Shown in pieces: positions 4,085 through 52,995 of a stretch of 64,000 nt of DNA. Every line of letters starts with the position of its first letter. Within the stretch, counting starts at the first letter, position 1. A model generated the notes under the pieces. The model saw nothing but the letters and a program-made list of their open reading frames with translations. It ran no database searches and was not told the DNA's origin. This stretch comes from Larkinella humicola (GTDB taxonomy: Bacteria; Bacteroidota; Bacteroidia; Cytophagales; Spirosomataceae): the NCBI RefSeq assembly GCF_008727875.1, contig NZ_VTWS01000008.1, forward strand, positions 124,001-188,000. Direction: 5' to 3'. The translations under genes were made by a program, and so were the position numbers.

Positions 4085-5860
4085 TTATAAAACCGCCAGT
4101 GTGTTCCTCACCAGTTTCTGCATCGGCAGCGAAATCATGACCGAGGTGCCTTTTCCGGGTTCGCTCTGCCACATCACCTGACCGCCGAGGTAGGCAATCC
4201 GGGATTTGATATTTGCAATGCCATTGCCTTTCGACGGGTTGTTTTCAAAATCGCCACCCCGTCCGTCATCGTCCACACTGATGAGCACCGCTTCGTCATT
4301 GGTCATAATCTGTACGGTAATCGTCTCGGCTTCAGCATGTTTCAAGGCATTGTTCAGCAATTCCTGCACAACCCGGTAAATCATCACCGAAGCTTCGTCG
4401 CCCAGATCGGGTACTTCGCCGTAATGTTCCAGCGTCAGAGCGGTTTCATTGACCAGATTTAACTTCTGCACCAGGTCTTCGAGGGCTGGAATCAGTCCAA
4501 AATTCGAGAGTGCATAGGGTCTCAAATCGCTGGAAATCAGCCGGGTTTCCGTACAGGCTTCGTCCAGAAACTGGTTCAACGGTTCCTTCACCGACAGGGG
4601 CAACAGTTCCTGATGAGCCTCCACAAACAGTTTGATTCGCGAGAGCTGAATGCCCAGACCGTCGTGCAAATCCCGGGCAATCCGGCTCCGTTCGCCCTCC
4701 TGCCCCTCGATCATGGCCTGCAACGACTTCAGTTCCAGATCCCGAATCTGTTGCTGCGCAATAACCGTCTGCTGGTGCGAAATCAGTTTCTGCTGACGTC
4801 GCAGAAACACCAACGCCCCAACCCCCAACACACTGATGACCAATCCACCCGCCAACATAGAATTCAGAATATGCTGGTGTCGGCTTTGCTCCTCAACCAA
4901 TTGCTTTTCAACCGCCAGCGTCTTCACCTGACTGTCCAGTTCCTGCAACCGGATGCTTTTGGTCTGCTCGGAATAGTAAAACTGGTTCGTAAAATCCAGC
5001 GTCCTCAACGACGACCGATAGGCGTTTTTGAAGTCGCCTTGGTGCGAATAACTGTCGGCGGCATGCCGGGACAATTCCCGCAGCATGGATACGTTTTTCT
5101 CCGACTCGGCCAGCTTGTAACTTTTCTCATAGGCGGCAATGGCCGCTTCCGGGCGGTTTTTGAATTGCTCGACCAGCCCCAGATAAAAGTAGTTCAGGGC
5201 AATCATCCAGTTGGTCTTCAACTGCCGGGCCATATTCAGACTGCGGATGGCGAAGTACTGTGCCGAATCCGGTTGTTTATTCCGTAAATAGCTGTTGGCC
5301 AGCAGATTCATAGCAAAAGCCTGTGAGTACGCCTGCTTATAGTGGGCACTCATCCGCTCGGTTTCCCGCAATTCGGTGATCAACTTCTTCGGAATCAACT
5401 CGTTTTTCTGCGCCAGATTCGCAAACGCCAGGCGGCATTCGATGATCTTCGGGTGGTTATGTTTTCGCTTGAAATACTGCAGCGCTTTTCCCAGATACTG
5501 CTCCGCGTAGGGCTGCATAAACAGATCCTGCGAATAGTAATCGCCAATGGCAATGTGGACGTTGTAATACCCCAGCGAATCGCCTTGCAGGTGGTAGTAT
5601 TTCATCCCGTTGAAATTGGCATCGAGCGTATACTTGTTGTAACCGTATTGCTGGTGATAAAGCCATCCCAACTCTTCATAGGATTTGGCAGCTTTCCCAT
5701 ACTGCTTTTCCTGCACCCATTGCTGGATCTGGTTTTTCAGGCTGACAATGGCCGAAGAATCCGATTGTGCCAGCACGTTTTGTCCCATGCCCAGAAGCAA
5801 CAGGAGCAACACCGCACCCAGGCACTTTTGTCGGACTAGCTCGCGCACCCGTTCTGCCAT
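4085..5860 (-). CDS. TPR-containing sensor histidine kinase (HisKA_3 type)
   Basis: Membrane sensor kinase of 591 residues. A signal sequence with a strongly hydrophobic leucine-rich stretch (about residues 14-30) is followed by a periplasmic region of TPR-like helices (about 50-320), one transmembrane helix (about 332-352), a short coiled-coil linker, and a HisKA_3 dimerisation domain with the phospho-acceptor His399 in RIARDLHDG. The C-terminal HATPase_c domain has the N-box (ELLNNALKHA) and G-box (DDGRGGD, GNGIANI). The gene follows the NarL-type regulator at 5932-6579 on the same strand, so regulator and kinase form one unit. TPR kinases of this type commonly regulate neighbouring loci; both the SusC/D genes and the divergent lanthipeptide genes are candidate targets. 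Confidence 0.93.
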   Translation of the reverse strand: MAERVRELVRQKCLGAVLLLLLLGMGQNVLAQSDSSAIVSLKNQIQQWVQEKQYGKAAKSYEELGWLYHQQYGYNKYTLDANFNGMKYYHLQGDSLGYYNVHIAIGDYYSQDLFMQPYAEQYLGKALQYFKRKHNHPKIIECRLAFANLAQKNELIPKKLITELRETERMSAHYKQAYSQAFAMNLLANSYLRNKQPDSAQYFAIRSLNMARQLKTNWMIALNYFYLGLVEQFKNRPEAAIAAYEKSYKLAESEKNVSMLRELSRHAADSYSHQGDFKNAYRSSLRTLDFTNQFYYSEQTKSIRLQELDSQVKTLAVEKQLVEEQSRHQHILNSMLAGGLVISVLGVGALVFLRRQQKLISHQQTVIAQQQIRDLELKSLQAMIEGQEGERSRIARDLHDGLGIQLSRIKLFVEAHQELLPLSVKEPLNQFLDEACTETRLISSDLRPYALSNFGLIPALEDLVQKLNLVNETALTLEHYGEVPDLGDEASVMIYRVVQELLNNALKHAEAETITVQIMTNDEAVLISVDDDGRGGDFENNPSKGNGIANIKSRIAYLGGQVMWQSEPGKGTSVMISLPMQKLVRNTLAVL

Positions 5861-5931
5861 TTTGAGAGTCGTTAAATGCTATACAACTAATGAATCGCTT
5901 CCTTTATTGTCGATCAATCCTGAACCGTCTG

Positions 5932-6579
5932 TCAATCAATACACTGCATTTCCATGGCGGTTTTGATCAGCAGCGCAGTATTGGGAACGCTGAATTTCAT
6001 GAGCAAACTGCTGCGGTGAAATTCGATGGCTTTGACACTCACGAACAGTTGCGTGGCCATTTGCTGCGTCGTTAATCCCTGTGAAATGAGCGTCAGCACT
6101 TCCGATTCGCGGGGCGTCAGGTTGGGTTTCAGGCCCGTTCCGCTGCCCGATTTCCGGTTTCGGGGCTCGTCATGCAGCAGAATATTCGTAATGATTTCGT
6201 TGAAATACGGTTTTTCGCGGTGGACCGTCCGAATCGCCTGCAACAGCTCCACCTTGGTCGTGTTTTTCAGTAAATACCCTTTTGCCCCTTTTTTCACCAC
6301 CCGTTTGATCAGGCTGGCGTCGTCGTGCATCGTCAGGGCGATCACTTTGGTAGCCGGAAACGTACGCGTAATGTGTTCACAAAGCGCCAGCCCATCTTCC
6401 ACCTGCGGAAAGGAAATATCCAGCAAAACGACGTCGATCGGCGCATGGCCCAGGTGTTCAATAACCGATGACACATCAAAGCAGCGCGCCGTCACTTCAA
6501 TTTCCGAAGACCCCGAAATCAGCGACTCAATCCCCTCAACAAACACATTGTGGTCATCGGCAATCAACACTCGTATCAT
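5932..6579 (-). CDS. NarL/FixJ-type response regulator
   Basis: DNA-binding response regulator of 215 residues. The ATG at 6579-6577 is preferred because MIRVLIADDH begins the receiver fold directly; an upstream start at 6609 would add an unneeded ten residues. The receiver domain has the acidic pair at residues 8-9, the phospho-acceptor Asp54 in VVLLDISFP, and a conserved Lys near residue 104. The LuxR-type helix-turn-helix spans about 145-190 (LTPRESEVLTLISQG). It is partner of the TPR kinase 71 bp downstream. Its start faces the lanthipeptide genes across a 410 bp intergenic region that contains two short palindromes (6756-6796). Confidence 0.93.
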   Translation of the reverse strand: MIRVLIADDHNVFVEGIESLISGSSEIEVTARCFDVSSVIEHLGHAPIDVVLLDISFPQVEDGLALCEHITRTFPATKVIALTMHDDASLIKRVVKKGAKGYLLKNTTKVELLQAIRTVHREKPYFNEIITNILLHDEPRNRKSGSGTGLKPNLTPRESEVLTLISQGLTTQQMATQLFVSVKAIEFHRSSLLMKFSVPNTALLIKTAMEMQCID

Positions 6580-6755
6580 CAATTCGTATGCGTTAACTCG
6601 GATGGGCACTCGACGTCTCCGTTGGGGAGAAAACCGGTTTTCAGTTTAACAACGGAACCACCTTTTTAATTTAACCCTTTACTGTTTCGATTGTACGAAA
6701 CGGATAAATTGAATATTGTTTAGCAAAAATAGGACAAAGGAGGTAGGTTATAAAA

Positions 6756-6842: not shown

Positions 6843-6989
6843 TGTTATCAATAAATCGCAACTAGTTACAAGTTACGGTTTCACTATCCTTTCAAAACCC
6901 GCCAAGTTTGTATCGGCCAAACCAAAAAGCCGCCGGGGACGCTGAAAACCGAACAGAGTAGGCACACCATCACACCATATTTTACCATC
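6843..6989 (+). repeat. Upstream region of precursor 1, copy A of a duplicated promoter-leader
   Basis: This stretch is closely similar to 8216-8369, which precedes precursor 2. Shared blocks include TTATCAATAAATC at the start, CCGCCAAGTTTGTATCGGC, and GCCGCCGGGGACGCTGAAAA. The similarity continues into the leader-peptide coding region. It shows that promoter, leader RNA and precursor were duplicated together. Confidence 0.9.
6879..6910 (+). promoter_or_regulatory. Candidate promoter of precursor 1
   Basis: TTTC at 6879-6882 and CAAGTTTG at 6903-6910, spaced by 20 nt, approximate the Bacteroidota consensus (TTTG, then TAnnTTTG). The same boxes with the same spacing are kept in copy B (8252-8255 and 8276-8283). 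The predicted 5' leader would be about 70 nt. Confidence 0.45.
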
Positions 6990-7139
6990 ATGAAAAAGCA
7001 AATTGCCAAATTGACACTGAAAACCGATCAGATCATTGCCTTATCCAAAACGCAGGCTTCTAACGTCATGGGCGGCCGGCCGAAAGACAAAACGATTGGC
7101 GGATGCACCACGGCGGGGTATTGCCCAACGGAACTGTAA
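6990..7139 (+). CDS. lanA1: Class I lanthipeptide precursor peptide 1
   Basis: A 49-residue peptide that begins MKKQIAKLTLKTDQIIALSK and reaches a double-glycine site at Gly28-Gly29 (NVMGG). This leader fits the Bacteroidota class I lanthipeptide leader type. The core RPKDKTIGGCTTAGYCPTEL holds two Cys (39, 45) and four Thr. Thr35-Ile-Gly-Gly-Cys39 and Thr41-Ala-Gly-Tyr-Cys45 both fit Thr-x3-Cys methyllanthionine rings. The leader is nearly the same as that of precursor 2 (MKKQ-K-TLKTD-IIALSK-QA-NV-GGR). The C39 peptidase of the exporter encoded downstream would cut after Gly29. A second Gly-Gly (37-38) lies inside the predicted first ring and is unlikely to be the cut site. Modification has not been shown. 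Confidence 0.88.
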   Translation: MKKQIAKLTLKTDQIIALSKTQASNVMGGRPKDKTIGGCTTAGYCPTEL

Positions 7140-7284
7140 TCCGTCCGCACACGCTTCCAGGAAGCAAAAATACTACCTACCAATCTCCGGACTCAGCGGC
7201 CTTTCTAACCCAGGGCTGTTGAGTCTTCTTTTCTTTGATAAACCCGGCCTGCGGCATTCGCTTGTCTTTCAACTCCTTGTTATT

Positions 7285-8217
7285 ATGAAATTGGGTCTTC
7301 TTGAATTCGGAACCGGATGCGTCAGTCCGATGGATATGGTTGAAAATGTACTGGACTATGCGCAGCAGGCCGAGGAACTGGGCTATACCCGGTTTTGGCT
7401 AGGCGAGCATTACGGCACCCCGACGGCCTACCACAACCCCGAAGTGCTGCTGCCCATCATCGCCGGGATGACGGATCGCATCAAAGTCGGCGTGGCGGGG
7501 CTGCTGATGGCGTTCCACAATCCGTACCGGGTGGCGGCTTCGTTCAAGGTCCTCAACAACCTGTTTCCCAACCGCATCGATCTGGGTGTGGCTGGCGGAG
7601 GGGTTCCACCGGAAATCGGAATGCTTCTGGCTCCGGATCTCGATTTGTCCAGTTCTGCCCCTAAAGTGGAACGGTTTGCCGACAACTGCCGGGCCTTGTA
7701 CGACTATCTCTTTGCGGACGAAAACGCCAGCCTGATTGCGCCCGTCGGCGGGTATTTGCCCACCTACTGGTCGCTGAGCGCGGGCCTGAAAAACCCGGCG
7801 GTTCTGGCCAGTCGGCCGACGGCGCTCTGCAAGTCCCTGTTTCATACCGAAATTACGGATCACAAACGGGATGCGGAGAAAATTCAGGAATACCGGGCGG
7901 TTTTTTACGAAAAACACGGCCGGGAGCCGGAAATCAATCTCGCCGTGGCCGGTGTCTGCGCCGAAACGGGAGCGAAAGCCCGCCAGATCCGGGAAGCCCT
8001 GGAACGCCCGGTCAGCATTCATAATGAATTAATTGGCTCACCGGCTTACATCCTGGATGAAGTGGCAAGGTTGCAGGAAATCTACGGCGTGGCGGAATTC
8101 ATTTTCCTGAACATGGCGGAAGAAACCGATCATAAAAAGGACGGAATCGAAAGGCTGGCCCAAGCCCTGCCGCAGTATACAGACGCTGCCAGCAACGTTT
8201 TTGCCATTTCCTACTAG
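7285..8217 (+). CDS. Luciferase-like (LLM class) flavin-dependent oxidoreductase
   Basis: Predicted cytosolic TIM-barrel flavoenzyme of 310 residues. The ATG at 7285 opens MKLGLLEFGT, the normal first strand of the family; the open frame reaches further upstream (to 7036) only because it crosses the precursor region. Visible family marks are GYTRFWLGEHYG, a strand-turn near VGVAGLLMAFHNPYRVA and FPNRIDLGVAGGG, resembling the MsnO8-like subgroup of bacterial luciferase-family oxidoreductases. It lies between the two precursor genes and its stop codon touches the second leader copy, so it is most likely a tailoring enzyme of the lanthipeptide. Members of this superfamily can oxidise substrates or reduce dehydroamino acids; which applies here is not visible. 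The cofactor (FMN or F420) is also unknown. Confidence 0.85.
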   Translation: MKLGLLEFGTGCVSPMDMVENVLDYAQQAEELGYTRFWLGEHYGTPTAYHNPEVLLPIIAGMTDRIKVGVAGLLMAFHNPYRVAASFKVLNNLFPNRIDLGVAGGGVPPEIGMLLAPDLDLSSSAPKVERFADNCRALYDYLFADENASLIAPVGGYLPTYWSLSAGLKNPAVLASRPTALCKSLFHTEITDHKRDAEKIQEYRAVFYEKHGREPEINLAVAGVCAETGAKARQIREALERPVSIHNELIGSPAYILDEVARLQEIYGVAEFIFLNMAEETDHKKDGIERLAQALPQYTDAASNVFAISY

Positions 8218-8369
8218 TTATCAATAAATCCCGACCAGTTACAAGTTCCGATTTCACAATCGTTTCAAAACCCGCCAAGTTTGTATCGGCTAAACAGAAA
8301 AGCCGCCGGGGACGCTGAAAACCGCAACAGAGTAAGCACATCAATCACACCAGTTCAAAACAACAAATC
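8216..8369 (+). repeat. Upstream region of precursor 2, copy B of the duplicated promoter-leader
   Basis: This is the direct counterpart of 6843-6989, starting at the stop codon of the flavoenzyme gene. It carries the same putative promoter boxes (TTTC 8252-8255, CAAGTTTG 8276-8283, 20 nt apart). It should give precursor 2 and the downstream biosynthetic genes their own transcript. Confidence 0.9.
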
Positions 8370-8507
8370 ATGAAAAAGCAAGTTTCAAAAATCACGTTGA
8401 AAACCGACAAAATCATCGCTCTGTCGAAAAACCAGGCCCAGAATGTCATCGGTGGTCGCTCTCACCAAACCGCTTCGGCTTGTACCAGCAAAATTTGCGA
8501 ACCGTAA
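8370..8507 (+). CDS. lanA2: Class I lanthipeptide precursor peptide 2
   Basis: A 45-residue peptide with the leader MKKQVSKITLKTDKIIALSK and a double-glycine site at 28-29 (NVIGG). The core RSHQTASACTSKICEP carries two Cys (38, 43). Thr34-Ala-Ser-Ala-Cys38 and Thr39-Ser-Lys-Ile-Cys43 are again two Thr-x3-Cys patterns, so the ring layout of precursor 1 is kept although the other residues differ. Ser31, Ser36 and Ser40 would be left as free hydroxyl or dehydro residues. The peptide is encoded 153 bp upstream of lanB, with a stem-loop between them that may let the precursor be made in excess. Confidence 0.88.
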   Translation: MKKQVSKITLKTDKIIALSKNQAQNVIGGRSHQTASACTSKICEP

Positions 8508-8580
8508 GCAAAACCGGCTTGCGATACGCCTGATCGGAAAATAGATCCGATTCTTCTTTTACCAGTTGAATCGCGAAGCG

Positions 8581-8610
8581 GAACGAAGGGGTGTAAAAGC
8601 TCCTTCGTTC
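8581..8610 (+). terminator. Stem-loop between precursor 2 and lanB, possible attenuator
   Basis: GAACGAAGG at 8581-8589 pairs perfectly with CCTTCGTTC at 8602-8610 around a 12 nt loop. Only a weak pyrimidine tract follows (TTCCC), so it is more likely a partial terminator or an RNA-stabilising hairpin than a full stop. This is a usual arrangement between precursor and modification genes. Confidence 0.5.
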
Positions 8611-8660
8611 TTCCCGTATTACCAGTGCCACACCATACACACACGCTACACTTTCTGGTC

Positions 8661-11600
8661 ATGAAGACGACTGCTTTCGAAACCGCTTTTGTTCGGGTTC
8701 CCCTTGCCGGTTTTGCCGCGATCGACAATCCGGACTGGACCCAGCTTAGCCAGCAACTTCAACATCCGGCTTTCCTTGAAGCCCTCTACATTGCCTCACC
8801 CGCTTTGTACGAAGAAGCGATCCAGTTCGATTTCAGCCGTCAGCCCGACGAAAAATCCCGGCGGGTACTGTATTCATTGATCAAATATTTGTCCCGCTAC
8901 GCCACCCGCTGCACGCCTTTCGGTTTGTTCGGCGGTTTTGCCACCGCGCCCATCGAAACCATCAACTCGAATATCCGTATAGCGGATACCGTTAGCCTGA
9001 AACGGGTCGTTCGGCTCGACATGAATTACCTCTGCGCGCTGGCGCAGGATCTGGAAAAACACCCCGATGTAAAGCCGTATCTCCGTTTTTTTCCGAATTC
9101 GAGCCTGTACGAAATCAATGACCAATACCGCTACGTCACGTATCGGTATGACAAGGGCCAACGGGTTCACCACCTGAGCAGCGCCGAAAAAAGCCCGTAT
9201 CTCGATGCGGTTCTGGAGCATAGCCAACCGGGCGTTTGGGCCGAAAGCCTGTATACGGCTTTAATCAGCGACGAAATCAGTGAAGACGATGCCCGGGATT
9301 TCGTTGAATCGGTGATCGATGCCCAGTTGCTGGTGAGCGAACTGGAGCCGTCGCTGACGGGCGAAAATTTTTTAGTCCAAATTCTGACCATTCTGCAAAC
9401 GATTGGCAGCCAGCATCCTTCTGATGAAATCGCCCGGATTGTGGCGTTGTTGCAGGAGGTTACCGTTGATCTGAAAACCCTGGAAAGTGGGGAGCACGAG
9501 ACTTCAATCGAACTACTAAGCCAGGTAGAGCACAAACTGAGCCACCTGTCTACCCCGTTCGACCGCAAAGTTCTCTTCCAGATCGACACCTATTTACCCA
9601 CGCTCTCCGGCCAGTTGAACCGGGGACTTCTCAATAAATTAGTCGCCAAAATTCCAACGCTCCTCAAACTGACTACCACCAGTGAGGGAGCGTTGGATGA
9701 CTTCAGAAACCGCTTTACCGAAAAATACGAAGACGAAGAAATCCCGCTGGTCGTCGCGCTCGACCCCGAAATTGGAATTGGTTTCCCGGCCGATCAGGAG
9801 TCCTTCGACGATTCCCCGCTGGTGGACGGCGTGGCGGCTGGCTCACGGGCCAAAGCCAAAAAGACCTGGACGGTGGCTCCCGAACAGGCGTTTTTGTTCC
9901 AGAAAGTAGCGGAAGCCCAACTTCACCGCACCGCCCGGATTGCCATTACGGAAGAGGATCTGTTGGCCATTGAACCCGCCCGGCCCAACCTGCCGCCCAC
10001 GAATGCCGCCATGTTTTCAGTCATTCGCGAGAACGGGCGGGAAACGCTGGTGCTCGATAGTTTTGGCGGAACCACCGGCACGTCATTGCTGGGCCGTTTT
10101 GGTCATACCGATCCCTCCATTTTGAACCTGATTCAGCAGATCAGCGACGCCGAGGATGCGATCCGGCCCGATGTGATTTTTGCCGACATTATTCACCTGC
10201 CCGAAGCCCGAACCGGCAACATTATTATCCGACCGCAACTGAAAAACTACCAGATTCCGTACTTGGGCAAGGCGTCGGTTGACAGCGAACACCAGATTCC
10301 GGTGACGGATTTGGTGATTCGGGTGGTGGGAAACCGCGTGGTGTTGCGGTCGAAGTTGCTCAACAAAACCATCGTTCCCCAGCTTTCCAACGCCCATCAT
10401 TACGCCCAGACCAATTCGCTGGATGTCTATCATTTCCTGTGCGCCCTGCAAAATCAGGCCATTCGGCCGTGGTTGGGTTTGTCGCTGGGGCCGGTCAATT
10501 CGGTGTTTGTCTACGTTCCCCGCATAGTTCTCGACAACATCGTTCTGTCGGAAGCCCGCTGGAATTGCCGCGCGCAGCAGGTCAAACCACTGGTGACGGC
10601 GTTCAAAAAGGCAGACTGGCCGGGTCTGAAAACCGAGATTGACCGCTGGCGCGACCAGTACGGCATTCCCCGGCACATTTGCCTGCTGGACTACGACAAC
10701 GAATTGTACGTGGATCTGGAAAATCGGTGGCTGGCCGAAACGTTCGTTAACGAGATCAAATCGCAGGACCAGTTTCAAATCAAGGAGTTTCTGTTCCGGG
10801 CCGACAATGCCATTACACAGTCGCCAGCGGGCTGGCACACGAATCAGTTTGTGGTGGCTTTTAAAAACGAGCCGGATTTGCCAGCCTTTACCCCTAAATC
10901 CCCTAAAGGGGACTTTGCAAATCTGGATTTTGCCGCGTCCAAGTCCCCTTTAGGGGATTTAGGGGCAATGCCAGGGTCGCGCACGACTTTAGGGGCAACA
11001 GTAAACCGCAAATTCTTCGCCGGTTCCGAATGGCTCTATTACAAGATTTACACCGGGATCAAAACCGCCGATGCGATCCTGACGACGGTGTTGCATCCGC
11101 TGGCCGAACGGTTTGCCGAGCGCGGCTGGACCGACCGGTTTTTCTTTATCCGCTACGGTGATCCGCACTTCCACATCCGGTTCCGCTGCCACGTCATCGA
11201 CCCGGCTTTTCTGGGGACGATCATTCAGGAATTGCACGATGCGCTGGCCCCTTTTCTGGCCTCCAACGTGATCACCGCCATTAAGAACGACACCTACAAC
11301 CGCGAACTGGAACGCTACGGACGTAATTCCATCGACGCCGTGGAGAACTATTTTCACCGGGACAGTCAAACGATTCTGCACTTCCTGAGCCTGATCGAAG
11401 GGTCGGAAGGCGAAGAATGCCGGTGGCGGTTTGGCATGAAACTCATCGACACGCTGCTGGACGAGATCGGTTTTGACCTGAAACAGAAACTGGATTTTGC
11501 GGACGAAAAAGCCGCTCAATTCGGTCAGGAATTTGGCTACAACTCGGTATTGAAAAAGCAAATGGATACGCGGTACAAAGAAATTGAAACCGCCATCACA

Positions 11601-11903
11601 GAGCTGTGGGCTGAAACCAACGAGGATCACCAGTTTTTCTACGAACTGAACCAACAACATCGGGAAACATTACGGCCCTTTATCCAGACCATTCTTCAAC
11701 TGAAAGAACAGAATCAACTGGAAATTCCCCTGACATCGTTGTTGGGCAGTCTGATTCACATGACCACCAACCGGTTGTTCCGCACCCGGCAGCGGTTTGT
11801 CGAATATTCGCTCTACTACCACCTCCACAAGTACTACCGGACTACGTATGGCCGCACGGTTCTGGCGAAGAAAAACGCTCTACTCGAAGCCGTAACGTTT
11901 TAG
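8661..11903 (+). CDS. lanB: Full-length class I lanthipeptide dehydratase LanB
   Basis: Dehydrates Ser and Thr of the precursor core by tRNA-Glu-dependent glutamylation followed by glutamate elimination. The ATG at 8661 (MKTTAFETAF) is preferred over the upstream frame from 8625. The protein has 1080 residues, like NisB. The N-terminal glutamylation domain (about 1-740) shows ATRCTPFGLFGGFA at 81-94, GQLNRGLLNKLVAKIP and the later HICLLDYDNELYVDLENRW. The C-terminal SpaB_C elimination domain starts near SEWLYYKIYTG and has RYGDPHFHIRFR. Both are in one chain, unlike the split dehydratases of pinensin-type clusters. About 37 residues at the junction (about 742-779; KSPKGDF, SPLGDLGA) come from a palindromic repeat inserted in frame. 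Translation is probably coupled to the exporter gene 2 nt downstream. Confidence 0.95.
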   Translation: MKTTAFETAFVRVPLAGFAAIDNPDWTQLSQQLQHPAFLEALYIASPALYEEAIQFDFSRQPDEKSRRVLYSLIKYLSRYATRCTPFGLFGGFATAPIETINSNIRIADTVSLKRVVRLDMNYLCALAQDLEKHPDVKPYLRFFPNSSLYEINDQYRYVTYRYDKGQRVHHLSSAEKSPYLDAVLEHSQPGVWAESLYTALISDEISEDDARDFVESVIDAQLLVSELEPSLTGENFLVQILTILQTIGSQHPSDEIARIVALLQEVTVDLKTLESGEHETSIELLSQVEHKLSHLSTPFDRKVLFQIDTYLPTLSGQLNRGLLNKLVAKIPTLLKLTTTSEGALDDFRNRFTEKYEDEEIPLVVALDPEIGIGFPADQESFDDSPLVDGVAAGSRAKAKKTWTVAPEQAFLFQKVAEAQLHRTARIAITEEDLLAIEPARPNLPPTNAAMFSVIRENGRETLVLDSFGGTTGTSLLGRFGHTDPSILNLIQQISDAEDAIRPDVIFADIIHLPEARTGNIIIRPQLKNYQIPYLGKASVDSEHQIPVTDLVIRVVGNRVVLRSKLLNKTIVPQLSNAHHYAQTNSLDVYHFLCALQNQAIRPWLGLSLGPVNSVFVYVPRIVLDNIVLSEARWNCRAQQVKPLVTAFKKADWPGLKTEIDRWRDQYGIPRHICLLDYDNELYVDLENRWLAETFVNEIKSQDQFQIKEFLFRADNAITQSPAGWHTNQFVVAFKNEPDLPAFTPKSPKGDFANLDFAASKSPLGDLGAMPGSRTTLGATVNRKFFAGSEWLYYKIYTGIKTADAILTTVLHPLAERFAERGWTDRFFFIRYGDPHFHIRFRCHVIDPAFLGTIIQELHDALAPFLASNVITAIKNDTYNRELERYGRNSIDAVENYFHRDSQTILHFLSLIEGSEGEECRWRFGMKLIDTLLDEIGFDLKQKLDFADEKAAQFGQEFGYNSVLKKQMDTRYKEIETAITELWAETNEDHQFFYELNQQHRETLRPFIQTILQLKEQNQLEIPLTSLLGSLIHMTTNRLFRTRQRFVEYSLYYHLHKYYRTTYGRTVLAKKNALLEAVTF
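10891..10965. repeat. Perfect palindromic repeat element inserted in lanB
   Basis: Arms 10891-10915 and 10941-10965 are exact 25 nt reverse complements around a 25 nt loop. The core word CCCCTAAAGGGG is a palindrome like that of the intergenic element at 4012-4081. A further partial copy of the end (TTTAGGGGCAA at 10958-10968) recurs at 10988-10998. The reading frame stays open through the element, which encodes low-complexity PKSPKGDF and KSPLGDLGA. It sits exactly between the two catalytic domains of LanB. Confidence 0.92.
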
Positions 11904-11905
11904 CC

Positions 11906-14149
11906 ATGAAACCAATGAAAAACGTTTTGAGAACCATTCTGGGTGGAAAAATGAGCCCTTATGCGCTGGTAGACCGGTTTCCGCACCTCGATCAGAGCGC
12001 CGGGATGGATTGCGGCCCCACCTGTCTGGCGATGGTTTTCAAGCATTACGGCGCGCAGGACGTTCGGCACCAACTGACCAAACTGGCCGAAATCAACACC
12101 GAAGGAAGCAGTTTGTATGACCTGATGGAGATTTCGGAAAGCTTCGGTTTCAAGGCGGAAGGTTACGAACTGGATTATCCCTATTTACAGAAGATTCAAC
12201 TGCCGTGCATCGCCCATTACGAGGGCCAGCATTTCGTGGTGGTGTACGAAGCCACGGATGCTTACGTGCGCGTGGCCGATCCGGCTTTTGGCAAGGCCCG
12301 GTACGAAAAAGACGAATTCTGCAATAAATTCAGCGGTATTGTTCTGGAGTTAAAACCGACCTCAACGTTTTTCGAAAACACGGAACTGGAGGAAGTTGCC
12401 AACGAACACAAGGCGAAAAAGGCGTCGGTTTTCCGGCAATTGTATTTCCCGATTCTGAAGGAAGGCAAGCGCGTGCTGGCCGAAATTTTCCTGTTTTCGC
12501 TGGTGCTCGAACTCGTCGGGCTGGTGTTGCCGCTGTTTACGCAAACGATGCTCGACAACGTGTTGATCAACCAGAACAAAAAGCTGCTGGTCGGGATTCT
12601 GGCGGGTTTGATGCTGGTTTTTGTCGTGCAGGTCGTGCTGACCTACGGGCGCAGTATGCTGATGATGCACTACCGGTTCCGCTTCGAAACCGAGTTCATG
12701 GGCAAGTTTTTCGAACGGCTGATTTCGCTGAAACAGAAGTATTACGACAGCCGCAAGCGCGAAGAATTCATGTCGCGGTTTCAGGAAGGCATCGGTATCC
12801 GGGCGCTGACCAATCCAATCATCATCCAGCAGTTTCTGGATGTGTTTTTCATGCTGATCTACTTCCCGATTCTCTTCGGTTTCAACACGCAACTGGCGAC
12901 CATCGCGCTGGTGTGTTTCGTGGCCTATGGGTTGACGACGGTTTATTTTATCCCGATCATTAAAAACCTGCGGTCGAAAGTATACCACAAAAATCAGGCG
13001 TCACTGGGCGGTTTTCTGGATACGGTTCTGGGCATCAAAACCGTCAAACTGCTATCGCTCGAAAAATACAAACTCGTTCGCTGGAAACAGCTTCACCGCG
13101 AATCGATCAATTCGGTGATGGCCGACGAGGAAAAGCAGATTTTGATCAACTCCATGCAGCGGCTGATTTTCATTTTCAGCCAGATTGCGGTGTATTGGGT
13201 CGGTGCGTACCAGATTTTTACGGGTGAACTCACGATTGGTCAATACATGGCGTTTACGGCCATTTTCATGATTCTGATGAACTCGATCAACAGCGTCAGT
13301 ATGCTCTGGATGATGGTGACGCAACTCAGTGTCAGCTTCGGAAAAGTCAACGAGATTTTTCTGGAAGACGAAGAATCCGCGAATGTTCAGGAGCAGGTTT
13401 CCCGGTTTTCAGGGAAGTCCATCCGCTTCAACAACGTTTCGTTTCGCTACCAGCAGAAAGACGCGAAGTACGTGTTGAAGAACCTGAACTGCGAAATCCG
13501 GCAGGGCGAACGCATCGGAATTGTCGGACGAAACGGCACCGGAAAATCCACCTTCGTCAAACTGCTGATGAACCTCTATCCCGACTACGAAGGCCAAATC
13601 TTTTGCGACGACACCGAACTGCGGAACATTCACCCGAAAACACTCCGGAAACACGTTCACCTGTTTCCGCAGGACACCTACGTTTTCAACGATACCATCA
13701 AGGAAAACATCCGCTGCGCCAACCTGTCGGCTTCGATGGAGCAAATCGCGGAAGCCGCCCAACTGGCGGATTTGCACCCGTTTGTCAAAGCGAATCATTT
13801 GGGCTATAACCACATGATCGGCAGCTTTGGCAGCAACCTGTCGGGCGGACAGGTTTTGAAGATCGGTTTTGCCCGGCTTTTCGTGGCCGACCAACCCGAC
13901 ATCATCATTCTCGACGAAGCCAGCAGCGCGCTGGATGTGGAAACGGAACGCCAGATTCTGGACAACATTTACGAGCGGTTTAAAGGCAAGACCATCATTT
14001 CCATTGCGCACCGGCTGCACACGCTCAAAAACGTGGACCGGATTCTGGTTTTCGACGGCGGCACCATCGCCGAACAAGGCAACCACAGCGAACTAATTGA
14101 TAAACAAGGCATTTACTACGATTTCATCAAAACGTACATCGACTATTAA
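11906..14149 (+). CDS. lanT: ABC exporter with C39 leader peptidase domain
   Basis: Inner-membrane peptidase-ABC exporter of 747 residues that should remove the double-glycine leaders of both precursors and export the modified peptides. The N-terminal C39 domain has Gln30, catalytic Cys36 (MDCGPTC), His109 and Asp125. About six membrane helices follow (roughly 185-480). The nucleotide-binding domain has Walker A GRNGTGKS (541-548), the signature LSGGQ (645-649), Walker B with Asp670-Glu671 in ILDEASSALD, and the H-loop His702. The stop is followed after 3 nt by the HlyD-like gene. All catalytic residues are intact. No separate leader protease or dedicated immunity transporter is encoded nearby, so the exporter may also give self-protection (inference). 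Confidence 0.95.
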   Translation: MKPMKNVLRTILGGKMSPYALVDRFPHLDQSAGMDCGPTCLAMVFKHYGAQDVRHQLTKLAEINTEGSSLYDLMEISESFGFKAEGYELDYPYLQKIQLPCIAHYEGQHFVVVYEATDAYVRVADPAFGKARYEKDEFCNKFSGIVLELKPTSTFFENTELEEVANEHKAKKASVFRQLYFPILKEGKRVLAEIFLFSLVLELVGLVLPLFTQTMLDNVLINQNKKLLVGILAGLMLVFVVQVVLTYGRSMLMMHYRFRFETEFMGKFFERLISLKQKYYDSRKREEFMSRFQEGIGIRALTNPIIIQQFLDVFFMLIYFPILFGFNTQLATIALVCFVAYGLTTVYFIPIIKNLRSKVYHKNQASLGGFLDTVLGIKTVKLLSLEKYKLVRWKQLHRESINSVMADEEKQILINSMQRLIFIFSQIAVYWVGAYQIFTGELTIGQYMAFTAIFMILMNSINSVSMLWMMVTQLSVSFGKVNEIFLEDEESANVQEQVSRFSGKSIRFNNVSFRYQQKDAKYVLKNLNCEIRQGERIGIVGRNGTGKSTFVKLLMNLYPDYEGQIFCDDTELRNIHPKTLRKHVHLFPQDTYVFNDTIKENIRCANLSASMEQIAEAAQLADLHPFVKANHLGYNHMIGSFGSNLSGGQVLKIGFARLFVADQPDIIILDEASSALDVETERQILDNIYERFKGKTIISIAHRLHTLKNVDRILVFDGGTIAEQGNHSELIDKQGIYYDFIKTYIDY

Positions 14150-14152
14150 ATC

Positions 14153-15424
14153 ATGAACCCGTTGTTAGCTGATCTGGAAATCACCCAGTTCGAGAATTTA
14201 TACCACGTCGATGATGCGCCCATTGCCGACGTTCGCCAGCGGATTTTGAGTCGTCTGGGCTGGTTTGCGGTTTTGTTGACGGTGGTCGGTGGCGCGATGG
14301 GTTTTGTCATTGAATTTCCGGACATGATTGCCGTGCCGTTCGTGGTCAAATCCGAAGTGGCCGAAGCAATGTACCGGTTTCCTTCGACGATTTACGTGGA
14401 AAAAACCTTCGTCAAACCGGGTCAAACCGTGGCCGCCGGAGCGCCTTTGCTGGAAGTAAGTGCCCCGGATGTGGCCGCGCTGGTGGCCGATTTCTCCGCA
14501 GCCAACACGGCGGTCGGTCAATACGAAAAATACCGGACGGTTTCGGCCAGCAAAGAACAGCAGATCATTGAGTTGACAATGGCGCAGATTCGGGAAGACA
14601 TCCGGCTGAAAGAAACGCAGATCGACGTTCAAAGGAACAAATGGGCGTCGGAACTGGTGAAGCTGAAGTTTGAGCAGGAAGACGCGCAGCGGATTTTCAA
14701 AATCAACCAGGATTTATACCGCACTGGCGACATCAGCAAAAACGACCTGAATGCTTACGAGGCCACTTGGTTGCGGGCGCAATCCGCCTACCAGTCGGGG
14801 ACGCAGAATTTCGGGCAGGAAGAACGAACGTTGCGCCAGCAAATCGAGACCAAACGGCTGGAAATGGTAAGCCTGGAAAAGCAGCTAACCAAAAAAGATA
14901 CCGACTTCCGGGGCGAGGGCGCGCAGCTCCGCAGCTCGCTGGATGCGATGCACAAACGCATTGAAGGGCGGTTTGGGAAGTATGAAATTACGGCCAACAA
15001 CCATTTGATTCTGAAAGCCGAGCGAGCCGGTACGGTTTCGTTTGTCTTCGACGGCGAGAAGGAAGCCGCAGCCAGTTCGATTGTCCTCAAACTGATTTAC
15101 AAGGAAGCGCCCCTGTACGCCTACACGCAGGTGAATTCGTCGCGCATCGGGCAGGTGCAAGTCGGGCAGCCGGTAATTCTGAAACTGGATGCCTTCCCGG
15201 TGTACGAATGGGGAACCGTGCGCGGCCGGGTGAGCCAGGTTTCGATTACGCCCGACGAGAAGGGCCTCTTCAACGTTCAGGTGCAACTCACCGATTATCA
15301 ACGACTTGATAAGCGCATCCAAATTGGTATGCAGGGAAATTGCAACATCATTTTCGACGAACGAACGCTGTATGAGTACACGTTCCGAAACTTCAAAAAA
15401 GTAGCCACCGAACTCACGGAGTAA
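14153..15424 (+). CDS. HlyD-family membrane fusion protein
   Basis: Periplasmic adaptor of 423 residues that links the C39 exporter to an outer-membrane channel. A short cytosolic N-terminus and one membrane helix (about 38-60) precede a biotinyl-lipoyl-like half domain (VEKTFVKPGQTVAAGAPLLEV), a long coiled-coil hairpin (about 115-265), the second lipoyl half and a beta-barrel domain (IGQVQVGQPVILKLDAFP). It starts 3 nt after the exporter gene, so both are translated together. Its presence implies that the product leaves the cell through both membranes; the outer-membrane TolC-type component is not encoded in the window. Confidence 0.93.
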   Translation: MNPLLADLEITQFENLYHVDDAPIADVRQRILSRLGWFAVLLTVVGGAMGFVIEFPDMIAVPFVVKSEVAEAMYRFPSTIYVEKTFVKPGQTVAAGAPLLEVSAPDVAALVADFSAANTAVGQYEKYRTVSASKEQQIIELTMAQIREDIRLKETQIDVQRNKWASELVKLKFEQEDAQRIFKINQDLYRTGDISKNDLNAYEATWLRAQSAYQSGTQNFGQEERTLRQQIETKRLEMVSLEKQLTKKDTDFRGEGAQLRSSLDAMHKRIEGRFGKYEITANNHLILKAERAGTVSFVFDGEKEAAASSIVLKLIYKEAPLYAYTQVNSSRIGQVQVGQPVILKLDAFPVYEWGTVRGRVSQVSITPDEKGLFNVQVQLTDYQRLDKRIQIGMQGNCNIIFDERTLYEYTFRNFKKVATELTE

Positions 15425-15433
15425 TTACCAGCC

Positions 15434-16639
15434 ATGAACGCACTGTTGACCGATACCCAAACCCGGATTGAAACGGAACTCCACCGACTATACGATACTG
15501 TGGCGGCCGAACCGGTGGCCGAAAACCCGTCGCTGTTATCGGGGCAGGTCGGCTACGCGATTTTTGAAGCGTATTACCAGCGTCAGTTCGGATTAACCGA
15601 CAACAGTCGGGTCTGGGAACGACTCAGTGCGGGCATCGACGCCATTCAATCGGGGGCCGTCGATCACACCTTCGCGGGCGGCATTTCGGGCATTGCCTGG
15701 GGTTTTCTGCACCTTCACAACCACGGTTTTCTGGCCGACAGTCAGGATGATCCGCAGGAAATTGTGGCCGCGCTCGACGAACCGCTCTTTCTGCTTTCGA
15801 TGGACGACCTGAGCAAAGGCCGTTTCGATTATTTACACGCCGGTTTAGGAGCTTGTCTGTATTTCCTGGAACGCCCTCGTACGCCCGAAATCGTCTATTA
15901 TTTGACGGAAATCGTCGCCCAGCTGGATAGAATAGCCATCAAAAAAACCGACGGATCGATCACCTGGCACTTTCGAAATTTTAACAACCCCGCCGATGAG
16001 TCGGTTTCCTACAACCCGGGCTTGTCGCACGGCACGGCCAGCATCGTCGCTCTCCTGAGTCTGCTGTACCAGAATGGCTACGCCTGGCCGCAATGCGCCC
16101 GATTGGTTGAAGGCGGTTTGCAGTGGTTGTGGAGCGTCCGCAACACCGACCATCCGGCGGTATTTCCCAGACAACTTCTGGATGATCAAACCCGGGATGA
16201 CTTCAGTCGGCTGGCGTGGTGTTACGGCGATCCGGGCATCGCGCACACGTTTCAACTGGCGGGTGAAATCGTTGGGAATATCCGCTGGAAACAGATCGCA
16301 GAACACACGATGCTGAAAGCCGCTATCCGTCGCAGCCGGAAAGAAACGCTGGTGTCCGACACGGGTTTTTGCCACGGCTCAAGTGGACTCGGCCACCTGT
16401 TTTCCAAATTTGCCAAATGGTACCCGAACCCGGTTTTCGACGAAACCGCCCGGTACTGGCTGGATGCCACCTTGAACCAGGCCCTGCCCTCCCCGGAAAT
16501 CGACGGGGTGTCGTCCGTTACGCCCCTTCCCAATCGCGGAGAACGCTGTTTGCTGGAAGGTGACGCCAGCGTAGGGATGGTTTTGCTGTCACAACTCGGC
16601 GCGAATCCGGCCTGGGAGCGGTTTTTACTGATGCGGTGA
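15434..16639 (+). CDS. lanC: Lanthipeptide cyclase LanC
   Basis: Zinc-dependent cyclase of 401 residues that adds Cys thiols to dehydro residues to close the (methyl)lanthionine rings. The LanC-type alpha/alpha barrel is indicated by repeated GLSHGTAS-like turns: His199 in LSHGTA, the zinc ligand Cys263 in WCYGDPG, and the zinc ligands Cys313-His314 in CHGSSGLGH. All three zinc ligands are intact. It is the last gene of the tight series lanB, exporter, HlyD, lanC, with 9 nt between HlyD and lanC. The following gene starts 106 bp later and appears unrelated. Confidence 0.94.
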   Translation: MNALLTDTQTRIETELHRLYDTVAAEPVAENPSLLSGQVGYAIFEAYYQRQFGLTDNSRVWERLSAGIDAIQSGAVDHTFAGGISGIAWGFLHLHNHGFLADSQDDPQEIVAALDEPLFLLSMDDLSKGRFDYLHAGLGACLYFLERPRTPEIVYYLTEIVAQLDRIAIKKTDGSITWHFRNFNNPADESVSYNPGLSHGTASIVALLSLLYQNGYAWPQCARLVEGGLQWLWSVRNTDHPAVFPRQLLDDQTRDDFSRLAWCYGDPGIAHTFQLAGEIVGNIRWKQIAEHTMLKAAIRRSRKETLVSDTGFCHGSSGLGHLFSKFAKWYPNPVFDETARYWLDATLNQALPSPEIDGVSSVTPLPNRGERCLLEGDASVGMVLLSQLGANPAWERFLLMR

Positions 16640-16745: not shown

Positions 16746-19700
16746 ATGATTCAACCCAACCGCTTTCGAACACCGCTGCTCATTTCGGGGCTTTTCGCCG
16801 TCGCAGTCGTGTCCTGCATGAAAATGAGCCCAACCGGCTCGTCCAAAACCGCCAGCACACCGCTGGTCGTTCAGGAAGATCCGGCGACCGCCCGCACCCG
16901 GGCGAAAGAAATCCGGGACAACACCGCCATCAAGCTGGCCGATGGACTCAAAGTCGACCTCTGGGCGTCGGATTCGCTGGCGCCCGATCCGGTTTCCATG
17001 TCCATCGACGACCAGGGGCGGGTGTATCTGACCCGAACCAACCGGCAGAAAAACTCCGAGTTCGACATCCGGGGCCACCGCGACTGGATGACGCCGTCCA
17101 TCGCCCTGCAATCCGTTGAGGAACGTCGGGCGTTTCTGCGCAGCACCTTCGCACCTGAGAAAAGCAAGGAAAACGAATGGCTGAAAGACCTCAACGGCGA
17201 CGGCAGCCACGACTGGAAAGACCTTGCCGTTGAAAAAGACGAAGTCTGGCGGCTGGAAGACACCACCGGCGACGGAATTGCCGACAAAGCAACCCGGATT
17301 CTGAACGACTTCTTCGAAGAAGTTTCCGACGTAGCGGGTGGTTTGCTAATCCGGGCCGAAGACGCGTTTGTGGCCATTGCTCCGGATTTGTGGCGGCTGA
17401 AAGACACCAACGGCGACGGTATGCTGGATCAGAAAACATCGATCAGCCACGGCTACGGCGTTCACATCGGTTTCGGTGGCCACGGCATGTCGAATCCGAT
17501 TGAAGGACCGGATGGCAAGATTTACTGGAACATCGGCGACATCGGTGCCAACATCACCACCGCCGAAGGCGTCAACCACAAACGCCCTAACGAGGGAATC
17601 ATCGCCCGGTCTAACCCGGACGGCACTGATTTCGAAGTATTTGCGGGCGGTTTGCGCAACACCCACGAATTTGTATTTGACGACTACGGCAACCTGATCA
17701 GTTCCGACAACGACGGCGATCACCCCGGCGAAAGCGAACGACTGGTTCACGTTGTCGAAGGCTCGGATGCGGGCTGGCGGTCCAACTGGCAGTATGGCAA
17801 ATACACCGATCCGAAGAACAACAGTTATAAGGTCTGGATGGACGAGAAACTGTATACGCCCCGCTGGGAAGGTCAGGCGGCTTACATCATTCCACCGATT
17901 CAGAACTTCCACAACGGCCCGACCGGCATGGTCTACAACCCCGGCACGGCCCTGGGTTCGGAATGGAAAAACAAATTTTTCCTGGTCGAATTCGTGGGGA
18001 ATCCGGCCCGCTCGCCCATCTGGTCGTTTGGCCTGAAACCGAAAGGCGCATCGTTCGTGCTCGATGGCGAGAAGAATATTCTGAACGGGATTTTGCCCAC
18101 CGGTATCCGGTTTGGCCCCGATGGGGCTTTGTACATCGCCGACTGGATCAACGGCTGGGACGCCAAAAATTACGGACGGGTCTGGAAACTGGATGTAACC
18201 GACGACAAAAACGACCTGAAAGCATTGCGGGCCGAAACGAAACGCCTGATGGTGTTGAACTACGGGACGCAAACGGACGACCTGCTGTTGTCGCTGCTGT
18301 CGAACCCGGACATGCGCATTCGCCAGAAATCGCAGTTTGAACTCGTCAAACGCGGGGCCAAAGGAGCGGTTGTGTTGCAGAAAGCCGTGTCACAAACCGG
18401 CAACCAACTGGCCCGGATTCACGGCATCTGGGGCTTGGGGCAACTGGAACGGCAGGACAAATCCTACACGGCTTCCCTCCTTCCCTTGCTGAAAGATGCG
18501 GATCTCGAAATCGTGGCCCAAACCGCCAAAGTCCTCGGCGACGCGGCTGCTTCGGAAGCCGGGCCGCTGCTGATTCCTTTGCTGACGAGCCAAAACCCGC
18601 GCGTAAAATTCTTTGGCGCTCAGGCATTGGGCCGCATCAAATACCAGCCCGCCATCGAACCGCTGCTGGACCTGATCAAGGCCAACAACGACGAGGATGT
18701 GTATCTGCGTCACGCTGCGGTTTTGGCCCTGTCGCGCATCGGGCAGGTTGAACCACTGGTGGCACTGGCCAACAATCCCAACAAATCCCTGCGCCTGGCT
18801 GCGGTTTTGGTTTTGCGCCGGTTGAGTAGCGAAAAAGTTGCGCTGTTTTTGCAGGACAAAGACGAATACATCGCGACGGAAGCGGCTCGCGCCATTAACG
18901 ACGATTTGTCCATCGAAAAGGCATTACCGGCCCTGGCGGCTACGCTGAAAGATACCCGGTTTACGTCCGAACCGCTCCTGCGCCGGGCCATCAACGCGGC
19001 CCTGCGGGTGGGTACCGACGAGCAACTGAACACGCTGATTGCCTTTGCCAAACGCAAAGACGTGGACAAGGAACTGCGGGCCGAAGCCCTGGCGACCCTC
19101 GGAACCTGGGCCAAACCGTCCCCGCTGGACCGCGTCGACGGACGCTACCGGGGTGTTGTTGAACGAAATCCGGCGATGGTGAAAGCCAAAATTCAGGAGC
19201 AGGCCGATGTCTTTTTGCAGGAAACCGACCCCACGGTTTTGGTGGCAATTTCGCAGATGGTGAGCAATTTAGGCATAACCGACAAAGCCGCCAGCCTCGC
19301 CAAAATTATGGACGAAAGCCAATCCGCCGAAGTTCGGTCGGCCATGCTGACGGCTTTGCATCAGTTGAAATACCCGGCGATTGAGACGGTGATCAGAAAG
19401 GGCATGAACGACGCCGATCCCGATGTTCGCACCACGGCCCTGGGTCTGGTCAGTGGTCTGAATCTGTCGACGGAAGCGTTGGCAGACGTTTCAAAAGCAA
19501 TTTTTGAAAAGGGAACCGTGAAAGAACAACAGCAACTGCTGCGCGTTCTGGGGAGCATGCCCGCGGCAAAAACCGAACCGATTCTGGCTGGTGTCATCGA
19601 TAAAATGATCAGCAAGCAACTACCGGCCAGCCTGGCGCTGGAACTCGGTGAAGCCGTGGATTCCACCAAATCAGCGGCTCTGATTGCCAAACTGGCTCCG

Positions 19701-51022: not shown

Positions 51023-51709
51023 TTAAACGGTCAGCCGGTCCGTTACCCGAAATTCCCGCCGGCGGAGCCAGAAACTGACGAGAAGGACCAGGTAGAAAAA
51101 AGCCGAGAACGTTCGGACAATGGTAATGTATAAATAGTAACTGCCATTTGAACTCAGGTCTCCCAACGTCACCTTGACGAACAGAAAAACAAACAGCGTG
51201 CCAGCCGCGTGGACAATGGCCCCGGCGCTCACCCAGAACATGGAATGAATCAATAAATTCTGGATCTGCATCTTCGTCAGGATGTAATGAAAATACAGCA
51301 GTGCATACAAAATCATGATGATTCGTTGAACACCGAGGGCAACACCGGCAATATTGGTCCAGCTAAAGTCGTACAGAAATACCATTACATACACGACAAA
51401 ACCGCTTAGAATCAGCATCCGGTTTCGCCGGGATTTTAGCTCGATCCAGTACGCTGCGGCAAAGCCGCTCATTTCAACGAGCGAATTTAAATTGTATAAA
51501 TAGGTATTATTATGGCGATAGGCCGCATCGTGAATTTGGATCAAACTAATTACGAATGAAAAAATTAGCATTCGTAATAGCCACCGATTTGACTTGTCCA
51601 GAAAAAAATAATTCACCAGACCTGTTCCAATGGCTAGCAACAGGAACAGATCTGGTAAAAATGAATCCGGATACTTGAATATTAACTTGACGTAAGGATG
51701 ATCAATCAT
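51023..51709 (-). CDS. Seven-helix membrane protein of unknown function, copy 2
   Basis: Integral membrane protein of 228 residues with about seven hydrophobic helices and a short positively charged tail (LRRREFRVTDRLTV). It is paralogous to the gene at 52302-52973; they share a conserved segment IHSMFWVSAGAIVHAAGTLFV against KHSLFWISSGLIIQFTGTFFV, plus NTYLYN against NLFLYN. I do not recognise the family. It starts 23 nt after the CPxxC gene 51733-52119, and the histidine kinase follows. A role as sensor for that kinase is inferred from context only. Confidence 0.75.
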   Translation of the reverse strand: MIDHPYVKLIFKYPDSFLPDLFLLLAIGTGLVNYFFLDKSNRWLLRMLIFSFVISLIQIHDAAYRHNNTYLYNLNSLVEMSGFAAAYWIELKSRRNRMLILSGFVVYVMVFLYDFSWTNIAGVALGVQRIIMILYALLYFHYILTKMQIQNLLIHSMFWVSAGAIVHAAGTLFVFLFVKVTLGDLSSNGSYYLYITIVRTFSAFFYLVLLVSFWLRRREFRVTDRLTV

Positions 51710-51732
51710 CGTTTCAACAGACTTCTATTTCC

Positions 51733-52119
51733 TTACGGATTACACTCCGGCGGACATATCGGCCCGTCGGCTAACTGCCCTTCCCGACCAGACGGCATAT
51801 CTTTCATTCCGGCTTCTGCAGGATCGGTCAATTCCAGAATTTCCCGGCCACTTTTGTCGATCCCTACCAACACAACGCGCGGCACCAGGTGCTCATTTCC
51901 GTTGACGGTTTCCCGGCGTTTGGCGTGATAAACCCGGATGCCGATGCAGCCCGGCTGATCCAGGATTTGCTGTAAATTATCGCTGCCAAAAAACTCGGAG
52001 CGAACCGTGTCGGCCTGCGGAATCTGTTGTAGTTTTTTGCGTTCCTGGTAAGCACCTTTGAACTGATCGGCTTCGTCTTTGGAAATAAAGCGTCCCGCAC
52101 CGGGGTTAATATTACTCAT
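51733..52119 (-). CDS. Small soluble protein ending in a CPxxC motif, copy 2
   Basis: Protein of 128 residues without signal peptide or membrane helix. It shares with the gene 52996-53400 the pattern SEFFG, CIGIRVYHAKR, PRVVLVGID, then a gap and LADGPICPPECNP. One Cys lies in the beta-strand motif GCIGIRVY and two in the C-terminal CPPEC. The Cys triplet could bind a metal or form a redox pair. I do not recognise a named family. It is encoded 23 nt before its membrane partner. Confidence 0.75.
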   Translation of the reverse strand: MSNINPGAGRFISKDEADQFKGAYQERKKLQQIPQADTVRSEFFGSDNLQQILDQPGCIGIRVYHAKRRETVNGNEHLVPRVVLVGIDKSGREILELTDPAEAGMKDMPSGREGQLADGPICPPECNP

Positions 52120-52973: not shown

Positions 52974-52995
52974 TTGCTCTTTAAATGTTTAATAC

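Follow-up and report, generated by a model that had tools for sequence, protein, structure and literature searches.

A class I lanthipeptide cluster of Larkinella humicola with a luciferase-like enzyme and DUF805b-like RNAs ahead of its precursors

A survey of nearly 8500 precursors described Bacteroidetes class I lanthipeptide leaders that carry an LxLxKx5L motif, end in GG and are accompanied by C39 proteases (Walker et al. 2020, PMC7268733; here and below, statements on this survey refer to the portions of it that deal with these systems). The locus analysed here, positions 6990 to 16639 of a 64,000-nucleotide stretch of Larkinella humicola (assembly GCF_008727875.1, contig NZ_VTWS01000008.1; the whole stretch is called the window), shares the leader family, LanB, LanC and the C39 exporter with these systems, whereas a lidless luciferase-like flavin enzyme (LLM) and a DUF805b-like RNA in the precursor leaders are added here. 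As a whole, the locus is best explained, and in our view probably so, as a working class I lanthipeptide pathway with RNA-led precursors and tailoring by the LLM.

Other described systems resemble parts of the locus. The LLM fold is also found in lanthipeptide clusters as LanJC and LxmJ, but these are from Streptomyces, and LxmJ depends on F420, of which the markers searched for are absent from the present genome. GarO of actagardine is reportedly an LLM sulfoxidase encoded in a lanthipeptide cluster of a different class; an LLM in a lanthipeptide cluster, with oxygenation proposed, is what it has in common with our enzyme, to which it is likened by description and not by sequence. Pinensins of Chitinophaga are likewise class I lanthipeptides of Bacteroidota, but LanB, split into two proteins in pinensin-type clusters, is here one chain of 1080 aa. 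The closest described RNA is DUF805b (RF02914), with which the elements of the window share the P1 stem, the GAAAA and AGAGUAGG blocks and the position just before the start codon, while differing in scores below the gathering threshold and in a pseudoknot helix that the printed consensus line of RF02914 does not show. No report tying DUF805b or Larkinella to lanthipeptides was found in the open-licence literature.

The biosynthetic genes and their precursors

The genes follow in the order A1-LLM-A2-B-T-D-C, all on the + strand (Table 1), B, T, D and C standing for LanB, the C39 exporter, the HlyD-type protein and LanC. Both precursors match NF038158, the NCBIfam class I lanthipeptide leader L1b. 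LanB unites the glutamylation and elimination domains in its single chain and is homologous to NisB of solved structure (4wd9/6m7y). The WCYG and CHG motif columns of LanC align with NisC (2g02); the zinc ligands of LanC enzymes are Cys and Cys-His. By LanB, LanC and precursors alike, the locus is a class I lanthipeptide cluster.

An initial annotation, made from the nucleotide letters, had recognized such a cluster in a Cytophagales-like genome and had named two precursors, LanB, a C39 exporter, an HlyD protein and LanC; all six are found where it had placed them, Pfam and NCBIfam matches agree, and the lineage is Cytophagales, Spirosomataceae. The word "complete", which it applied to the cluster, does not hold: the LLM gene and the leader RNA elements were overlooked, as was a palindrome in the LanB linker. 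Its description of LanB as one chain was confirmed by both Pfam domains falling within it. That this is unusual was not borne out: among the matches listed, LanB open frames of the family span 998-1131 aa, enough for both domains, and the two domains are adjacent in every fetched family LanB locus with a LanB. Nor is the missing separate leader protease an anomaly, because Bacteroidetes class I systems have been published in which a GG leader is paired with a C39 protease encoded alongside it (PMC7268733); since the GG leader ends (MGG, IGG) and a C39 peptidase domain are both present in our cluster, a separate protease is not expected.

Precursors, LanB, exporter, HlyD and LanC co-occur in 6 of the 8 other genomes of the genus, so their association is not due to chance, and a protein search with LanB returned full-length homologues, 56-92% identical, likewise in 6/8. 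LanB (PF04738) is present in a single copy in this genome (7.86 Mb, 20 contigs, the window lying on contig 19) and in 117/222 genomes of the family. With GG-leader/C39 class I precursors already published, this frequency means that the pathway type is known and common in the family; what this cluster adds, as far as the literature covered goes, is a lidless LLM and leader RNAs of DUF805b-like type. In several LanB loci of the family (L155, L156, L160-L162, L164, L165, L173, L174; L and G numbers are our handles for loci and genomes) the Larkinella leader profile picked up no precursor at the score applied, and other leader types may serve them.

The window and six further Larkinella clusters hold 15 precursors in total; in L. 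punicea (L033) the contig ends just past the LLM, so that any A1 there is out of view. All 10 distinct cores, nine from Larkinella and one from the near relative L169 (LanB 68-72% identical), fit the motif [ST]x3C[ST][ST]x2-3C. The cores of the window have 2 Cys and 4-5 Ser/Thr; their computed masses are 2110.0187 for linear A1 (2073.9976, 2055.9870 and 2037.9764 after loss of 2, 3 and 4 H2O) and 1717.7876 for linear A2 (1681.7665, 1663.7559, 1645.7453 and 1627.7348 after loss of 2, 3, 4 and 5 H2O). The nisin/gallidermin motif SxxxCTP(G/S)C is absent from the cores, as Pro is missing after CT. The window, L032, L034 and L036 share one and the same A1 core, which we judged unexpected for a weapon, and no immunity gene was seen among the genes identified in the cluster, a negative obtained with no search aimed at immunity genes. 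Both points favour a product that is a signal or developmental peptide and not an antibiotic. We regard this as rather unlikely, given that the core spacing resembles SxxxCTP(G/S)C of nisin and gallidermin (PMC7268733), Pro aside; the product is probably antibacterial.

DUF805b-like RNA ahead of the precursors

The upstream regions of 15/15 Larkinella precursors have in common a little-changed block GGGGACGCYGAAAACC..CAGAGTARGCAC, and in the window the end of the element is 25 nt from the ATG in A1 and 31 nt in A2. The exact pattern has two matches in the whole genome, one before each precursor, and a reversed control has none. In L032, L034 and L035 all 9 precursors match RF02914 (25.9-35.5 bits), and nothing else in these 52.5 kb matches Rfam at E<=0.01. 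Three precursor elements of L170 exceed the RF02914 gathering score of 35.6, with 43.6, 42.8 and 37.6 bits. Since both scores in the window are below it, we call our elements DUF805b-like.

The structure was evaluated by covariation on 55 of 65 matches of a pattern that fixes GAAAA and AGAGTA[AG]G; the 10 left out were five repeating L170, the A1 element of L032, two of L172, one of L241 and an off-type L034 match at 493. For P1 plus a pseudoknot between loop and tail, 82.7% of cells are paired against 64.5% in shuffles, and the covariation score is 0.457 against 0.149, with 0/500 shuffles as high and slid controls at most 0.107. Pair 18-45 of the pseudoknot is not fixed by the pattern and is GC in 35 elements, CG in 5, GU in 5, UA in 3, AU in 2 and other in 5, and the four pairs of P1 show two-sided changes in 6, 29, 1 and 25 of the 55 elements. 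When the 24 precursor elements (14 of the 15 from Larkinella, 1 from L169, 6 from L170 and 3 from L172) are considered by themselves, every cell of the three pseudoknot pairs is paired, two-sided changes number 5, and 95.8% of P1 cells are paired. A U of the pseudoknot loop faces A in A2 and G in A1. The covariation speaks for the P1 stem and, in addition, a pseudoknot helix. This helix is missing from the cmscan consensus line for RF02914, which may print no pseudoknots at all.

Several results weigh against this structure and the assignment to RF02914. Neither element of the window reaches the gathering score; the outer pseudoknot pair 17-46 fails, being unpaired in 43/55; and the P1 pair 10-29 is unpaired in 16/55 and gapped in 13/55. 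One of five covariation measures, the number of pairs changed on both sides, is 6 against 5.7 in shuffles (358/500), and nested folding of the A1 and A2 leaders is weaker than that of shuffles (z +1.70 and +2.35).

The element reaches far beyond this genus. RF02914 was found in 155/222 family genomes and in 243/395 genomes of the class Bacteroidia, with 0/14 controls each time. In 30 family loci, 40 family stretches (4/40 without a pattern match) and 29 class loci we inspected the nearest downstream frame that starts with ATG and has 25 or more codons, counting as GG peptides those no longer than 100 aa in which GG falls within residues 10-50; the samples were drawn from the best-scoring places and not at random, both the GG rule and the signal rule are crude, and related peptides may come from one locus. 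GG peptides followed in 16/38, 10/41 and 4/26 cases respectively, against 43/555, 49/755 and 28/574 for random places in the same loci, and signal-like starts in 6/38, 13/41 and 12/26, against 53/555, 68/755 and 30/574. Frames of neither kind made up 16/38, 18/41 and 10/26, and four further elements had no qualifying downstream frame. The gap to the ATG is 15-35 nt in 30/38, 38/41 and 20/26 (88 of the 105 elements with a downstream open reading frame). The RNA element is thus general; in this family it leans towards GG peptides and signal-like proteins, while Larkinella has it attached to lanthipeptides, though not to these exclusively: RF02914 matches once in G001, a genome with no LanB match, and six times in G008, where three precursors are known.

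A conserved DNA site, be it a promoter or a regulator site, would also suit a short element of unremarkable nested folding energy. We consider this very unlikely in view of the covariation in P1 pairs and at the loop-tail pair 18-45, and of a distance that puts most elements nearer the start codon than expected of a promoter.

As a mark of all such precursors the DUF805b-like RNA was rejected, since our model R1 finds it at 0/14 in L167, L168 and L171 against 10/11 in L169, L170 and L172 (R1 was built partly from the 24 precursor elements named above, and its scores on them are circular). In L168 an R1 element stands ahead of LanB and not of a precursor. In the LLM clusters outside the genus (L143-L154) R1 gave nothing above noise (best 13.2 bits, E 0.14). 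Further observations were made along the way. Across Bacteroidia (L230-L328) the element precedes small GG-leader peptides and signal-like proteins at a near-constant distance from the ATG; in L240, L241 and L260 element and GG-leader peptide form tandem arrays, and in L250 the protein behind the element is DUF805-like by eye. Two further loci outside the genus combine element and LanB: L256 (G214:C43), with an RF02914 match about 1.3 kb from a LanB match, and L166, with an R1 match of 30.1 bits at 16890-16955 in its LanB region.

The luciferase-like enzyme

The nearest relatives of the LLM, 58-95% identical, are in Larkinella sp. C7, L. punicea, L. knui, L. rosea, L. soli and L. terrae. It is kept in 6/6 sister clusters, always upstream of LanB, and in five of the six a precursor lies on its far side, the sixth contig (L033) ending there. 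The surroundings vary: in L033 a precursor sits between LLM and LanB; in L037 LLM, LanC and LanB are consecutive; and in L034 LanC is directly behind the LLM, with two precursors ahead of LanB. A profile of seven LLMs (E<=1e-40) matched in 19/222 family genomes, in 18 of which LanB is in the region fetched with the LLM; this is the case in 7/7 genomes of the genus and in 11 (L143-L153) of the 12 outside it, where regions of 17-19.5 kb were fetched. In the 19th genome (L154) the LLM is flanked by LanC and LanT and the contig ends. Neither LanB nor LanC was near the LLM in the 74 non-Larkinella loci (0/74) within the best 80 of 371 LLM loci, where many contigs are short.

We aligned 97 LLMs (distinct matches of 230-420 aa), 23 of them lanthipeptide-linked and 74 others, some of which are cut by contig ends. 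The stretch matching residues 220-262 of the window LLM measures 40-44 aa in 23/23 lanthipeptide-linked enzymes and 63-77 aa in 74/74 others, so that the former lack about 32 residues found in the latter. In the tree a branch supported at 100/100 separates these 23 from the others, to be read with the warning that long branches meet, including on both sides of this branch, and that the loop columns were included. Every one of the 23 is located in a region with lanthipeptide genes. In a structure model (pLDDT 88.3) the gap falls after the seventh barrel strand, the site at which bacterial luciferase carries its mobile lid. In L147, L149, L150 and L153, outside the genus, two tandem LLM genes stand beside LanC, and the copies form separate subclades.

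An ordinary class I cluster, in which the LLM is a bystander caught between duplicated precursors and the leader likeness is mere duplication, appears unlikely to us. The two leader regions are indeed a 91% duplication, and L169 is a close cluster without the LLM; the gene, however, is retained in all sister clusters, including L034 and L037, in which LanC has been relocated to the position next after it, all clade members reside among lanthipeptide genes, and the leaders covary beyond plain repetition. We read the LLM as a probable tailoring enzyme.

As for the cofactor, MsnO8 (4US5) is the nearest solved structure by both sequence and fold, and F420 enzymes such as KvPepI rank lower. In the profile search TIGR03558, the MsnO8 family, outranks the F420 families, although its score on the window LLM (138.7 bits) is below the curated cut-off of 166.95, as are those on the LLMs of L143 (166.5) and L145 (133.8). 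In the genome, cofH is not found above cut-off (one weak match, 26.1 bits against 374.1), and the F420 ligase has no match, while three archaeal controls were positive. The LLM would most likely use FMN; the absence of the two F420-synthesis markers from the genome favours FMN and oxidation over an F420-type reduction.

The points that go against oxygenation, or against a need for the enzyme at all, are the following. The fold matches include KvPepI, an F420 enzyme of solved structure that is likewise short (a chain of 276 residues), and the lanthipeptide LLMs described in the literature covered, LanJC of birimositide (PMC7268733) and LxmJ (PMC8498797), reduce dehydroalanine (Dha), which speaks for reduction. 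Moreover, since L169 has the core motif and no LLM, this core type does not require the enzyme. A LanJC-type reductase converting left-over Dha or dehydrobutyrine (Dhb) into a D-amino acid would also find substrate, because the first Cys of the cores is followed by a pair of neighbouring Ser/Thr, of which one ring can use only one. This reductase is a possibility to be taken seriously, yet we hold it to be less probable than not: LxmJ needs F420 (PMC8498797), for which both markers are wanting here, and TIGR03558 and MsnO8 outrank the F420 families and enzymes. Oxygenation with FMN is, as a matter of judgement, somewhat preferred over reduction.

Remaining features and the proposed pathway

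The coordinates of all features are collected in Table 1.

Table 1. Features of the lanthipeptide locus, in positions of the window
Feature	Position	Strand	Evidence
5' leader region of A1	6844..6951	+	91% identical over 108 nt to A2 leader; repeat search, alignment of 15 upstream regions
DUF805b-like RNA before A1 (P1 stem + pseudoknot helix)	6932..6964	+	RF02914 33.2 bits, E 5e-7 in 2.1-kb search
Precursor A1	6990..7139	+	49 aa, leader ends MGG, core RPKDKTIGGCTTAGYCPTEL; NF038158 57.2 bits (cut-off 27)
Short luciferase-like flavin enzyme (LLM) with a probable tailoring role	7285..8217	+	PF00296 E 1e-23
5' leader region of A2, second copy	8217..8324	+	Repeat search
DUF805b-like RNA before A2	8305..8338	+	RF02914 21.7 bits, E 0.0038 in 2.1-kb search
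Precursor A2	8370..8507	+	45 aa, leader ends IGG, core RSHQTASACTSKICEP; NF038158 50.7 bits (cut-off 27)
LanB dehydratase, one 1080-aa chain	8661..11903	+	PF04738 E 5e-136, 454.9 bits; PF14028 E 2e-63, 215.7 bits
75-bp genomic palindrome	10891..10965	+	In frame in variable LanB inter-domain linker; encodes ..PKSPKGD...KSPLGDLG..
C39 peptidase-ABC exporter, predicted cut after leader GG	11906..14149	+	PF03412 (116.3 bits), PF00664, PF00005; PCAT-type peptidase structures
HlyD-type membrane fusion protein	14153..15424	+	PF13437 E 3.5e-11
LanC cyclase	15434..16639	+	PF05147 E 2e-28, 99.5 bits

The LanB linker contains a palindrome whose arms recur through the genome (70 forward and 74 reverse matches at <=2 mismatches; control 0). 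This repeat is the reason why dozens of short matches to LanB residues 735-785 turned up within the genus. The palindrome is full in L. terrae and partial in L. punicea; by eye, the other four aligned LanBs lack it. It sits between the two domains that are separate proteins in pinensin clusters. As a general coding element it was rejected: only 3 of 49 copies, taken from 52 fetched stretches of this genome, have more than 100 frame codons on both sides (L201, L209 and L224, the last being LanB). In-frame copies occur in a few other long Larkinella frames. Rickettsia palindromic elements are palindromic repeats placed in frame within a protein gene (PMC3733652, for the part concerning them); the LanB palindrome shares this in-frame insertion and is a possible analogue, likened by description and not by sequence, but differs in that 46/49 copies are not so enclosed.

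Outside the operon, the two-component regulator at 4085-6609 was rejected as cluster regulator, as histidine kinase and response regulator flank the cluster in L032 and L034 and were not found in the fetched stretches of L035, L036 and L037, while the L. punicea contig (L033) ends; the two genes were treated as flanking. Sigma-70 promoters numbered 5 against 6.5 expected, and TTTG-TANNTTTG, a Bacteroidota promoter pattern, had one match in the window against 1.14 expected, away from the cluster. By eye, 51023-53400 holds a gene pair in two neighbouring copies (a small protein of about 130 aa and a membrane protein of about 225 aa), in or beside a low-GC stretch (0.363 at 52001-53000), and 58270-58899 on the - strand looks like a phosphopantetheinyl transferase.

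The pathway that we propose would run as follows. Each precursor mRNA would open with the DUF805b-like pseudoknot RNA near its start codon, which may set translation. LanB would glutamylate Ser/Thr and then eliminate, and LanC would add the two Cys, giving two thioether rings, probably T-x3-C and a second ring starting one or two residues past that Cys. After ring formation the lidless LLM, most likely with FMN, would alter the peptide, the first choice being an oxygenation such as thioether sulfoxide and the second the reduction of a dehydro residue still present. Finally, the C39-ABC exporter would cut after the leader GG and export the product with HlyD and an outer-membrane channel encoded elsewhere.

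More tentatively, and with more doubt than confidence, the DUF805b-like RNA might be a pseudoknot switch that jointly controls exported peptides of Bacteroidia and is the main control of lanthipeptide precursors in Larkinella, the products being completed by FMN-dependent LLMs of a new, lidless class whose open active site takes the peptide.

In the lidless LLM clade there is now a well-delimited candidate for a chemistry of peptide modification that has no Bacteroidota assignment in the literature covered. An RNA motif present in 243 of 395 sampled Bacteroidia genomes gains concrete target genes and a testable pseudoknot and, since both exact-pattern copies in the genome precede lanthipeptide precursors, one strain provides a clean test.

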